From assembly GCF_001975225.1 (NCBI RefSeq), contig NZ_CP019445.1, positions 186,001-250,000 of the forward strand: a DNA stretch of 64,000 nt. Direction: 5' to 3'. The DNA is from Kosakonia cowanii JCM 10956 = DSM 18146. Its GTDB lineage: Bacteria > Pseudomonadota > Gammaproteobacteria > Enterobacterales > Enterobacteriaceae. Below the pieces are notes generated by a model. That model saw nothing but the letters and a program-made list of their open reading frames with translations, searched no databases and was not told the origin of the DNA. The translations under genes were made by a program, and so were the position numbers. Shown here piece by piece: positions 19,262 to 64,000 of this stretch. Each line of letters opens with the position of its first letter. The stretch's first letter is position 1.

Positions 19262-19579
19262 ATGGCTGAATGGAGCGGCGAATATATCAGCCCATACGCT
19301 GAGCACGGCAAGAAGAGTGAGCAAGTAAAAAAAATTACGGTGTCCATTCCTCTTAAGGTGTTAAAAATCCTCACCGATGAACGTACCCGTCGTCAGGTGA
19401 ATAACCTGCGCCACGCCACCAACAGCGAACTGCTGTGCGAGGCGTTTTTACATGCGTTTACCGGCCAGCCTTTGCCGAATGATGAAGACCTGCGTAAAGA
19501 GCGCAGCGATGAGATCCCGGAAGAGGCGAAAGTGATTATGCGTGAAATGGGTATCGACCCGGATACGTGGGAATACTGA
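19262..19579 (+). CDS. metJ: Methionine repressor MetJ
   Basis: Ribbon-helix-helix dimer that binds met boxes with S-adenosylmethionine as corepressor. 105 residues, nearly identical to E. coli MetJ. The DNA-reading beta strand is [11 protein letters not shown] (about residues 23-33), followed by the two helices. Start ATG 19262 gives [15 protein letters not shown], the known N-terminus; the reading frame has no supported longer form. Divergent from metBL, with its own terminator. Confidence 0.98.
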
Positions 19580-19586
19580 TCGCAAT

Positions 19587-19619
19587 AAAAAGGGCGGAAA
19601 TCATATTCCGCCCTTTTTT
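19587..19619. terminator. Bidirectional terminator between metJ and a 26-codon gene
   Basis: Stem AAAAGGGCGGA/TCCGCCCTTTT-like with A-rich 5' and T6 3' flanks, so it can end transcription from metJ on the plus strand and from the small gene at 19639-19719 on the minus strand. Confidence 0.9.
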
Positions 19620-19638
19620 GATTTATCGCACCTGCTTA

Positions 19639-19719
19639 TCAGAAACGCGTCACTTCCGGATGCACTTCTGCCAGTGAGAGCAGGTAAGACATAAATACGT
19701 TTTTCATTGCTGTCAGCAT
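19639..19719 (-). CDS. Candidate 26-residue small protein with its own CRP site
   Basis: Not recognised. Reads MLTAMKNVFMSYLLSLAEVH then PEVTRF. An AAGGA lies eight bases before the ATG, and the gene ends 20 bp before the bidirectional terminator. A perfect TGTGA-N6-TCACA palindrome lies 84 bp upstream, and the rpmE terminator isolates it from the upstream gene. The peptide has a hydrophobic middle (VFMSYLLSLA) and an acidic end; it is too short for a confident membrane call. A second ATG at codon 5 is possible. In E. coli this interval holds yiiX instead. It could also be a small regulatory RNA with an incidental ORF. Confidence 0.55.
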   Translation of the reverse strand: MLTAMKNVFMSYLLSLAEVHPEVTRF

Positions 19720-19794
19720 ACAAATGATCCTTTTACGCTCAAATAGTGTGAGGAGATGTATGGCGACAGGGTATGCCTGTTTTTTGACCAGAGC

Positions 19795-19826
19795 AATATT
19801 TTTGTGAAGCTCATCACAAAAATATT
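19795..19826. promoter_or_regulatory. Perfect CRP-type palindrome between rpmE and the small gene
   Basis: The core TGTGA-agctca-TCACA (19803-19818) is a full CRP consensus, and the symmetry extends outward to 13-bp perfect arms (AATATTTTTGTGA and its complement). It lies after the rpmE terminator and 84 bp before the 26-codon ORF on the minus strand, so that ORF is the natural target. With an A/T-rich flank it could also bind FNR weakly, but the TGTGA core favours CRP. Confidence 0.85.
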
Positions 19827-19851
19827 CCCCCTGAGGCAAACCGCAGAGACA

Positions 19852-19877
19852 AAAAAAGCGCCTTTCGGCGCTTTTTT
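19852..19877. terminator. Terminator after rpmE
   Basis: Perfect stem AAAAAAGCGCC/GGCGCTTTTTT with a TTTC loop, 11 bp beyond the rpmE stop; symmetrical, so active in both directions. Confidence 0.92.
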
Positions 19878-19887
19878 CTTTGGCAAC

Positions 19888-20100
19888 TTACTTGCTGCCC
19901 GGGATGCTGAAGCGTTTGTTGAAACGGTCAACACGGCCACCAGTTGCAACATCACGCTGCTTACCGGTGAAGAACGGGTGGCATTTACCACACACGTCCA
20001 GGTTCAGATCGTGACCCAGAGTAGAGTGGGTTTCGATCACGTTACCGCAAGAACAGGTTGCAGTAATCGCTACGTAATTCGGGTGAATACCTTTTTTCAT
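19888..20100 (-). CDS. rpmE: 50S ribosomal protein L31 (zinc form)
   Basis: Small ribosomal protein at the central protuberance bridging to the 30S head. 70 residues. The four zinc cysteines are present: CSC near residues 16-18 and CGKC near 37-40, which marks the zinc-containing L31 rather than the zinc-independent paralogue YkgM. Divergent from priA and followed by a strong terminator. Confidence 0.98.
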
Positions 20101-20184
20101 GGGGAAACCTCAGTTTAAGGCCGCGTCGCTCTTCCAGCCCTAACGCCAGACACCACGCGAGTTGATATGTAAGTGAATCTTTGA

Positions 20185-24761: not shown

Positions 24762-24829
24762 ATAAATGCATTCTGCCCCGTACGCTGTGCGGGGCGCTGT
24801 ATGTGCTTTTGTAACCAAGGGGTCTGCTC

Positions 24830-25360
24830 GTGACAACAATCGTAAGCGTACGCCGTAACGGCCATGTCGTTATCGCCGGTGATGGCCAGGCCACACTGGG
24901 CAACACCGTGATGAAGGGCAACGTTAAAAAAGTTCGCCGTCTCTATAACGACAAAGTCATTGCAGGCTTTGCGGGCGGCACAGCGGATGCCTTCACGCTG
25001 TTTGAGCTTTTTGAACGCAAACTGGAAATGCACCAGGGTCACTTGGTGAAAGCCGCCGTCGAGCTGGCAAAGGACTGGCGTACCGATCGTATGCTGCGCA
25101 AGCTGGAAGCGCTGTTAGCGGTCGCCGACGAAACCGCGTCGCTGATCATCACCGGTAACGGCGATGTGATTCAGCCGGAAAATGACCTGATTGCCATTGG
25201 CTCCGGCGGACCATACGCCCAGGCCGCTGCCCGCGCACTGCTGGAGAACACCGAGCTTGGCGCGCGCGACATTGCTGAGAAGGCGTTGGGGATCGCAGGC
25301 GATATCTGCATCTACACCAACCACTTCCATACCATCGAAGAATTACCCGCTCAAGCGTAA
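24830..25360 (+). CDS. hslV: ATP-dependent protease HslVU, peptidase subunit HslV
   Basis: Proteasome beta-like threonine peptidase forming a double hexamer capped by HslU. 176 residues, GTG start. After removal of the initiator the catalytic Thr is exposed in [10 protein letters not shown]; the conserved GDGQATLG and TGNGDVI motifs are intact. It forms an operon with hslU (9-bp gap) under the sigma-32 promoter. Confidence 0.98.
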
Positions 25361-62689: not shown

Positions 62690-64000
62690 ATGCAGGTCAG
62701 CAGAAGGCAGTTCTTTAAGATCTGCGCTGGCGGTATGGCAGGTACAACGGCTGCAGCACTGGGCTTTGCCCCCAACATTGCACTCGCGGAGACACGGCAA
62801 TATAAGCTGTTGCGCACCCGCGAAACCCGTAATACTTGCACATATTGTTCCGTGGGCTGCGGGCTATTGATGTATAGCCTCGGCGACGGTGCAAAAAACG
62901 CCAAAGCGTCAATTTTCCATATCGAAGGGGATCCGGACCATCCGGTAAACCGCGGCGCGCTCTGCCCGAAAGGGGCAGGTCTGGTGGATTTCATCCACTC
63001 TGAAAGCCGCCTGAAATACCCGGAATACCGTGCTCCAGGTTCCGATAAGTGGCAACGCATCACCTGGGAAGATGCCTTTGAGCGCATCGCCAAACTGATG
63101 AAAGCCGACCGCGACGCCAACTATGTTGCGCAGAACGCCGAAGGCACCACCGTGAACCGCTGGCTGAGCACCGGGATGCTGTGCGCATCCGCTTCCAGTA
63201 ACGAAACCGGCTATTTAACCCAGAAATTTACCCGCGCCCTCGGCATGTTAGCCGTCGATAACCAGGCGCGTGTCTGACACGGACCAACGGTAGCAAGTCT
63301 TGCTCCAACATTTGGTCGCGGTGCGATGACCAACCACTGGGTTGATATGAAGAACGCCAATCTCATCGTGGTGATGGGAGGGAACGCGGCAGAAGCGCAT
63401 CCGGTGGGATTCCGCTGGGCGATGGAAGCCAAGATCCACAATGGCGCGAAGCTGATTGTTATCGATCCTCGCTTTACGCGAACCGCCTCGGTTGCGGATT
63501 TTTATACGCCGATTCGTTCCGGTACTGACATCGCTTTCCTGTCAGGCGTGTTGCTGTACCTGCTGAACAACGAAAAATATAACCGCGAATATACCGAAGC
63601 CTATACCAACGCCAGCCTGATCGTGCGTGAAGATTTTGGCTTCGAAGATGGCCTGTTCACCGGCTATGACGCGGAAACACGCAAGTACGACAAAACCACC
63701 TGGAACTACGAGCTGGATGAGAAGGGCTTCGCTAAGCGCGATAAAACGCTGACTCACCCGCGCTGCGTGTGGAACCTGCTGAAACAGCATGTTTCCCGCT
63801 ATACGCCAGATGTGGTTGAAAACATCTGCGGGACGCCAAAAGCGGACTTCCTGAAGGTGTGCGAGTACATCGCGGAAACCAGCGTGCATGATAAAACCGC
63901 CTCGTTCCTCTATGCACTGGGCTGGACGCAGCACTCCGTCGGCGCGCAGAACATCCGTACCATGGCGATGATCCAGCTGCTGCTCGGCAATATGGGGATG
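62690..64000 (+). CDS. fdoG: Formate dehydrogenase-O major subunit, selenoprotein (5' part)
   Basis: Catalytic alpha subunit of the periplasm-facing aerobic formate dehydrogenase: oxidises formate, holds molybdopterin and a [4Fe-4S] cluster, passes electrons to FdoH. 437 codons are visible, ending at the window edge in frame. Twin-arginine signal SRRQFFK at residues 4-10; cluster cysteines in CTYCSVGC (about 50) and later LCPKGAG. Codon 196 (63275-63277) is TGA, in QARV-U-HGPTVASL, and the frame continues intact afterwards, so it is selenocysteine and not a break. The ORF should not be annotated as a 195-residue protein. Distinguished from fdnG by its place beside fdhD. Confidence 0.95.
63275..63315 (+). 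promoter_or_regulatory. Selenocysteine UGA codon with bacterial SECIS hairpin
   Basis: UGA followed within 14-25 bases by a hairpin with GCAA/TTGC arms around a GTC apical loop (63293-63303), like the SelB-binding GGUC loop of fdhF and fdnG mRNAs. Recodes UGA with SelB and tRNA-Sec. Confidence 0.75.

Follow-up and report, generated by a model that had tools for sequence, protein, structure and literature searches.

The window, a 64-kb stretch of Kosakonia cowanii DNA, carries a compact unit on the minus strand of the interval between rpmE, its upstream neighbour, and the convergent gene metJ. At the corresponding place of E. coli K-12 the gene order is rpmE-yiiX-metJ. The initial annotation had read this interval as a self-contained miniature gene, and each part it listed has been found: the two hairpins, the CRP palindrome, the AAGGA sequence and the 26-codon ORF. 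It named no promoter; the elements given in Table 1 were assigned by comparison with relatives. Judging from the position of the -10 element, transcription would start at the A at 19761, leaving a leader of 42 nt.

Table 1. Features of the unit and of its neighbours in the window
Feature	Position	Strand	Remarks
rpmE (ribosomal protein L31), upstream neighbour	19888..20100	-	ORF translation
L31 leader	20107-20159		Rfam match
rpmE terminator hairpin	19852..19877	-	hairpin analysis
CRP palindrome, 13-bp arms	19795..19826		arms 19795-19807 and 19814-19826, 13 nt each, 100% complementary, 6-nt spacer; core TGTGAAGCTCATCACA at 19803-19818
-35 element TTGCTC	19791..19796	-	17 bp from the -10 element; comparison with relatives
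-10 element TACCCT	19768..19773	-	not among the consensus scan hits; TATTCT in the K. cowanii locus and in G011
Putative transcript, ~175 nt	19587..19761	-	sequence reading
AAGGA ribosome-binding sequence	19728..19732	-	8 nt before the ATG at 19719
26-codon ORF MLTAMKNVFMSYLLSLAEVHPEVTRF and TGA	19639..19719	-	coding 19642-19719, stop 19639-19641
Terminator hairpin, T-runs on both strands	19587..19618		shared by the unit (-) and metJ (+)
metJ, convergent downstream neighbour	19262..19579	+	match to relatives

Over its 64 kb, the window has a single TGTGA-N6-TCACA motif, where shuffles lead to an expectation of 0.01. The 32-bp palindrome pattern, with up to three mismatches allowed, has likewise a single occurrence, against none in 100 shuffles. 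The perfect 13-bp arms emphasized by the initial annotation are real in the window, but their length is not a conserved trait: among the 25 readable copies of the unit, the window's included (a 26th copy is masked), the perfect part of the arms ranges from 4 to 15 bp. The terminator scan lists only the metJ-side hairpin, a count of one that is not above the shuffle mean of 1.8. Under a strict script test, 22 of the 25 readable copies show a hairpin with a T-run after the stop codon; in the copy of G133, a terminator is not evident within 75 nt after the stop. Elsewhere in the window, Rfam matches SECIS_3 (63272-63330) and a ClpQY promoter (24776-24832).

Distribution and surroundings of the unit

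The peptide gene is present in 26 of 29 whole genomes belonging to four genera of the family: Kosakonia (13 of 15 genomes), g166 (10 of 10), g92 (2 of 3) and g120 (the single genome). Genus g166 is probably Kluyvera, because its peptide recurs in database entry P0013, which bears the name Kluyvera sichuanensis. Named records containing the peptide are those of K. quasisacchari, K. oryziphila, K. pseudosacchari, K. sacchari, K. cowanii and Enterobacter sp. Bisph1, and the window is 95% identical over 7.2 kb to the K. cowanii locus. A sample of the family (392 genomes, 154 genera, E 0.003) gave 14 matches. Thirteen cover the whole peptide or almost all of it, all in these four genera; the fourteenth, in G157, is partial, lies inside a 447-aa frame and was taken as due to chance. 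For the order, 394 genomes were sampled and 173 had some match at E 1; the best one listed beyond the window's own genome has an E of 0.0089, is partial and contains a TAG. In the class sample (369 genomes, 124 with a match at E 1), the best among the matches listed has an E of 0.0056 and is also partial. The matches of these two samples outside the window's genome were likewise taken as chance. The 218-bp unit has no DNA match in the E. coli, plasmid or phage collections.

Two of the Kosakonia genomes have a clean empty site. In G002, the segment 19619..19836 (218 bp) is replaced by 6 bp, and G006 has 7 bp where the window has 216 bp, the same segment as in G002 to within 2 bp. The behaviour is thus that of a self-contained module, dispensable and able to be absent as a block. 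Its dispensability follows from its absence in 3 of 29 genomes and from an in-frame TAA in one Kosakonia copy, that of G009.

The content of the rpmE-metJ interval varies among relatives; one protein of each kind was tested with Pfam and NCBIfam, the others being assigned by resemblance. In g166, the interval can contain a KdgM-type porin, a GPH sugar symporter, a LacI-type regulator, a LacY-type permease, a sucrose-6-phosphate hydrolase and a fructokinase. Six loci of this Kluyvera group (L151, L152, L154, L160, L162 and L164) harbor a sucrose-use cluster between the unit and metJ, composed of the LacI-type regulator, the LacY-type permease and the sucrose-6-phosphate hydrolase, with a fructokinase-like frame in four of the six; the tests covered proteins of L151 and L160, and the remainder were identified by resemblance. 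These neighbours fit a carbon theme. Sugar genes need not be neighbours of the unit, however, since they are absent from the interval in the window. In g92 and g120, a YiiX homologue shares the interval with a KdgM-type porin, joined by another MFS_2-type transporter in both g92 genomes that carry the unit. The proposal that the unit stands in place of yiiX is not supported as a simple exchange: the unit and a YiiX homologue coexist in these two genera. The rpmE gene was recognised in 13 of 14 longer stretches carrying the unit (one being partly masked), and in all 13 the unit is read in the direction of rpmE. In Kosakonia G003, an IS200/IS605-type transposase is located between metJ and the unit (L166:2833-3324).

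Selection on the 26-codon frame

The 26 copies differ mostly at synonymous positions. Calculated as uncorrected proportions over all 26 copies with codon 1 left out, within-group pN/pS is 0.079 in Kosakonia, 0.037 in g166 and 0.032 in g92 and g120 together, and between groups it is 0.20-0.26. Variable columns number 9, 4 and 24 at codon positions 1, 2 and 3, respectively (chi-square ~17.6, 2 df, calculated by hand). The frame itself is interrupted in one copy of 26, the other two forward frames in 26 and 12 copies, and the antisense frames in 10, 26 and 24 copies. The interruption is the TAA of G009, at codon 18, in a locus whose CRP core and terminator are intact; it may be a recent loss of the protein. 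The pattern that would have spoken against a protein, a frame broken by stop or frameshift while the CRP site is kept, is seen in this one copy of the 26. The C-terminal PEVTRF is found in all 26 copies and HPEVTRF in 25; in G009 it lies beyond the stop. Over nine typed variants, the invariant columns include K6, N7, V8, S11, Y12, S15, E18 and P21-F26. The prevalence of synonymous change indicates a conserved protein gene whose frame is under strong selection at the protein level, as the initial annotation had proposed.

The start is less uniform than the end. In four Kosakonia copies codon 1 is TTG, and an ATG lies three codons upstream of it, giving 29 residues; three other copies have ATG at both places. 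By a script test, 18 of the 25 readable copies have an SD-like sequence before codon 1, and seven lack it.

A non-coding RNA, or a chance ORF below a CRP site serving something else, would account for the copy with a stop, for the three genomes of 29 without the unit and for the seven copies devoid of an SD-like sequence. It is nevertheless highly improbable in view of the synonymous bias and of a C-terminal tail kept across four genera despite differing neighbours.

Database searches place the peptide outside annotated families: three variants match no Pfam or NCBIfam family at E 1, and the window's peptide matches no PHROGs family at E 1. A 66-aa over-long frame gives an NCBIfam match (E 0.0034) at 16.3 bits against a cut-off of 876, which is considered to be chance. 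The expectation that standard gene callers miss the gene is only partly true. Entries of 26-30 aa exist in databases, one of them the 29-aa hypothetical protein DFO56_11322 of Kosakonia sp. AG348, and entries of 57-62 aa (P0012-P0028, Kluyvera-type group, one of them attributed to Kluyvera sichuanensis) start in or upstream of the CRP site. Since the extra residues of the latter include the translated operator and -10 element (ITKIL and IICPSND, for example), their start sites are probably wrong. The locus thereby exemplifies how a tiny gene can be passed over by gene callers or be lengthened across the promoter that drives it. To note, a clear 57-aa member of the family, P0010, is labelled Vagococcus sp. 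WN89Y, a Bacillota name, perhaps from a mislabelled or contaminated assembly.

The predicted structure of the 30-aa form, based on six sequences, comprises a helix (residues 2-23) and a short helix (25-28), with a mean pLDDT of 87 and a pTM of 0.44. An amphipathic character is not claimed for the helix, as its moment is within the shuffle range (674 of 5000 shuffles as high). Among the papers searched, none was found with the string HPEVTRF, nor any combining rpmE, metJ, CRP, small protein and Enterobacteriaceae; for papers on Kosakonia, small protein, sRNA and CRP, the titles do not point to the rpmE-metJ locus. The peptide family is unnamed, while its kind, a CRP-controlled tiny protein gene, is already known.

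Promoter architecture and probable direction of CRP control

The operator and the promoter are conserved together. The core [TC]GTGA-N6-TCAC[AG] is present in all 25 readable copies, being exact in 21 and differing by no more than a single end letter in the others, which bears out the importance first attached to the palindrome. The TTG of the -35 element is also kept in all 25. The arrangement CRP centre-14 bp-TTGnnn-17 bp-TAnnnT is found in 24 of them, G009 having one base more. Between the CRP centre and the ORF there are 87 to 92 bp, depending on the copy; the spacing of operator and promoter is thus more strictly conserved than the remainder. In the window, the assigned promoter has 6 of 12 sigma70 consensus bases and is not listed by the consensus scan; its assignment rests on conservation in relatives. 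In several genomes, the sequence following the -10 element (TTTCGC, TTTCAC or TTGCCC) complements the stretch before the ribosome site. A leader hairpin was rejected on the ground that its 5' arm lies in the discriminator, upstream of the presumed start, and is thus probably not in the RNA.

If transcription starts at 19761, CRP would be centred at -49.5, a position that bears on the sign of control. According to a passage of Hollands et al. (PMC2859248) citing Gaston 1990, CRP placed near -50 activates class I/II promoters very weakly. In the parts of Venkat et al. consulted (PMC8672173), CRP represses vcdRP through a site upstream of the -35 element, and AzuCR and Spot 42 are cited as CRP-repressed; an excerpt of another report (PMC6049941) describes AzuC as over-expressed in glucose. 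Repression by CRP and induction by glucose would accordingly be expected here: weak sigma70 activation from about -49.5 and the near-identical geometry of azuCR, reported as CRP-repressed, favour it. The initial annotation had anticipated a transcript in the absence of glucose, and the same two observations point the other way. The azuCR parallel has a limit, as a second TGTGA motif lies between the azuCR -35 and -10 elements and is absent here; azuCR repression may thus not depend on the upstream site.

The opposite sign, the same small protein gene being activated by CRP and made without glucose, is rather unlikely. The weak -35 and -10 elements would also fit an activated promoter, and the E. 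coli aer promoter is activated by CRP from -49.5 (PMC2859248). The aer promoter is sigma28-dependent, however, and the conserved elements here are sigma70-like. A sigma28 promoter, tried because of the aer position, was rejected for the window: of the 25 copies, three have a match to the sigma28 consensus that beats mononucleotide shuffles at 0.05; these belong to the Kluyvera group, and none of the Kosakonia copies fits. A possible though doubtful extension is that the ~175-nt transcript also base-pairs with mRNAs, making it a dual-function RNA. Its layout resembles those of AzuCR and VcdRP, both reported as dual-function in the parts of PMC8672173 consulted, and in the Kluyvera group the leader is more conserved (pairwise identity 0.861, nine copies) than synonymous sites (1 - pS = 0.73, ten copies). 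In Kosakonia, by contrast, leader identity is 0.693, not above the 0.71 of synonymous sites; leaders differ between genera when compared by eye, and Rfam gives no family at gathering score in the unit.

A weak gapless resemblance between the peptides would also allow common descent with AzuC. That the peptide is a diverged AzuC paralogue, born from an azuCR duplication, is quite unlikely, even though the promoter geometry is nearly identical and the peptides align without gaps at one offset in all 18 pairs, a score reached by 8 of 5000 column shuffles. AzuC was chosen after the fact for this comparison; a score this high is reached by 39 of 3000 random 28-aa windows taken from long frames and, among 245 small ORFs in the window, by one. 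The NCBIfam AzuC model does not match three variants of the peptide at E 1, as compared to 2.9e-21 for Kosakonia's own AzuC, and the AzuC helix is polar (mean Eisenberg -0.2) whereas that of the new peptide is hydrophobic (+0.4). Suggestive in column shuffles, weak against real protein windows and failing the model, homology with AzuC is kept only as a rival explanation.

Proposed role and comparison with known systems

The explanation retained, which has slightly better than an even chance, is that of a one-gene, azuCR-like unit repressed by CRP and encoding a conserved protein of 26 to ~29 residues that tunes a partner in carbon metabolism. cAMP-CRP bound at about -49.5 would hinder RNA polymerase. 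When cAMP is low, on glucose or other preferred sugars, the promoter would be released and the ~175-nt RNA produced. The predicted hydrophobic helix with its fixed C-terminal tail may then bind and tune a protein of carbon uptake or central metabolism. A metabolic partner is proposed by analogy with AzuC, which raises GlpD activity, and VcdP, which raises GltA activity, as stated in the consulted parts of PMC8672173. A fuller version sees in the four genera (Kosakonia, Kluyvera and two others) a second, independent regulator of the AzuCR type. It would be a dual-function RNA induced by glucose, and its peptide, with the HPEVTRF tail, would activate or inhibit a central-carbon enzyme or a sugar transporter. 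Taken as a whole, this version is unlikely.

CRP-controlled genes for proteins of fewer than 30 residues are few, and the two with partners named in the parts of PMC8672173 consulted have metabolic enzymes as their targets. With its fixed spacing of operator and promoter, the new family may be a further case in which to ask if such a layout arose repeatedly as a coupling between sugar state and enzyme activity. E. coli K-12, being without a match to the unit, could serve as a host for promoter tests.

Among known systems, Spot 42 (spf/spfP) shares with the unit an RNA with an annotated small ORF and, according to the same excerpt of PMC8672173, reported repression by CRP. Its ORF is different, and the 120 bp before the K-12 RNA, inspected by eye, contain no TGTGA-N6-TCACA. 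VcdRP of Vibrio cholerae, whose 29-aa VcdP activates GltA, resembles the unit in encoding a tiny protein and in having its CRP site ahead of the -35 element. The VcdRP RNA is described in the consulted parts of PMC8672173 as longer than 300 nt and pairing via a four-cytosine stretch; it is likened to the unit by layout and not by the sequence of VcdP.

In AzuCR, the protein differs: AzuC (28 aa, NF033642) is a distinct peptide, and against the 30-bit cut-off of its model the Kosakonia AzuC scores 74.8 bits, while the three variants of the new peptide give no match at E 1. The azuC gene of Kosakonia lies at a separate locus in all 14 genomes searched of the 15 (G000:C1:4073002-4073082 for the window's genome), and 12 of these 14 loci keep the E. 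coli-like spacing, with both the operator and the spacer TGTGA. At the azuC loci of the window's genome (L108) and of G011 (L112), the upstream CRP operator is off the core pattern and the spacer TGTGA is kept. The E. coli azuCR promoter reads centre-14-TTGATT-16-TATTAT, with the CRP centre at -48.5 from the annotated start; its spacer is 16 bp long instead of 17 bp and holds the second TGTGA that is absent from the new unit. The two units share a CRP operator 14 bp before a TTG -35 element, a sigma70 -10 element, a 42-nt leader (its start annotated in E. coli and deduced here), an ORF of 26-28 codons and a terminator right after the stop.
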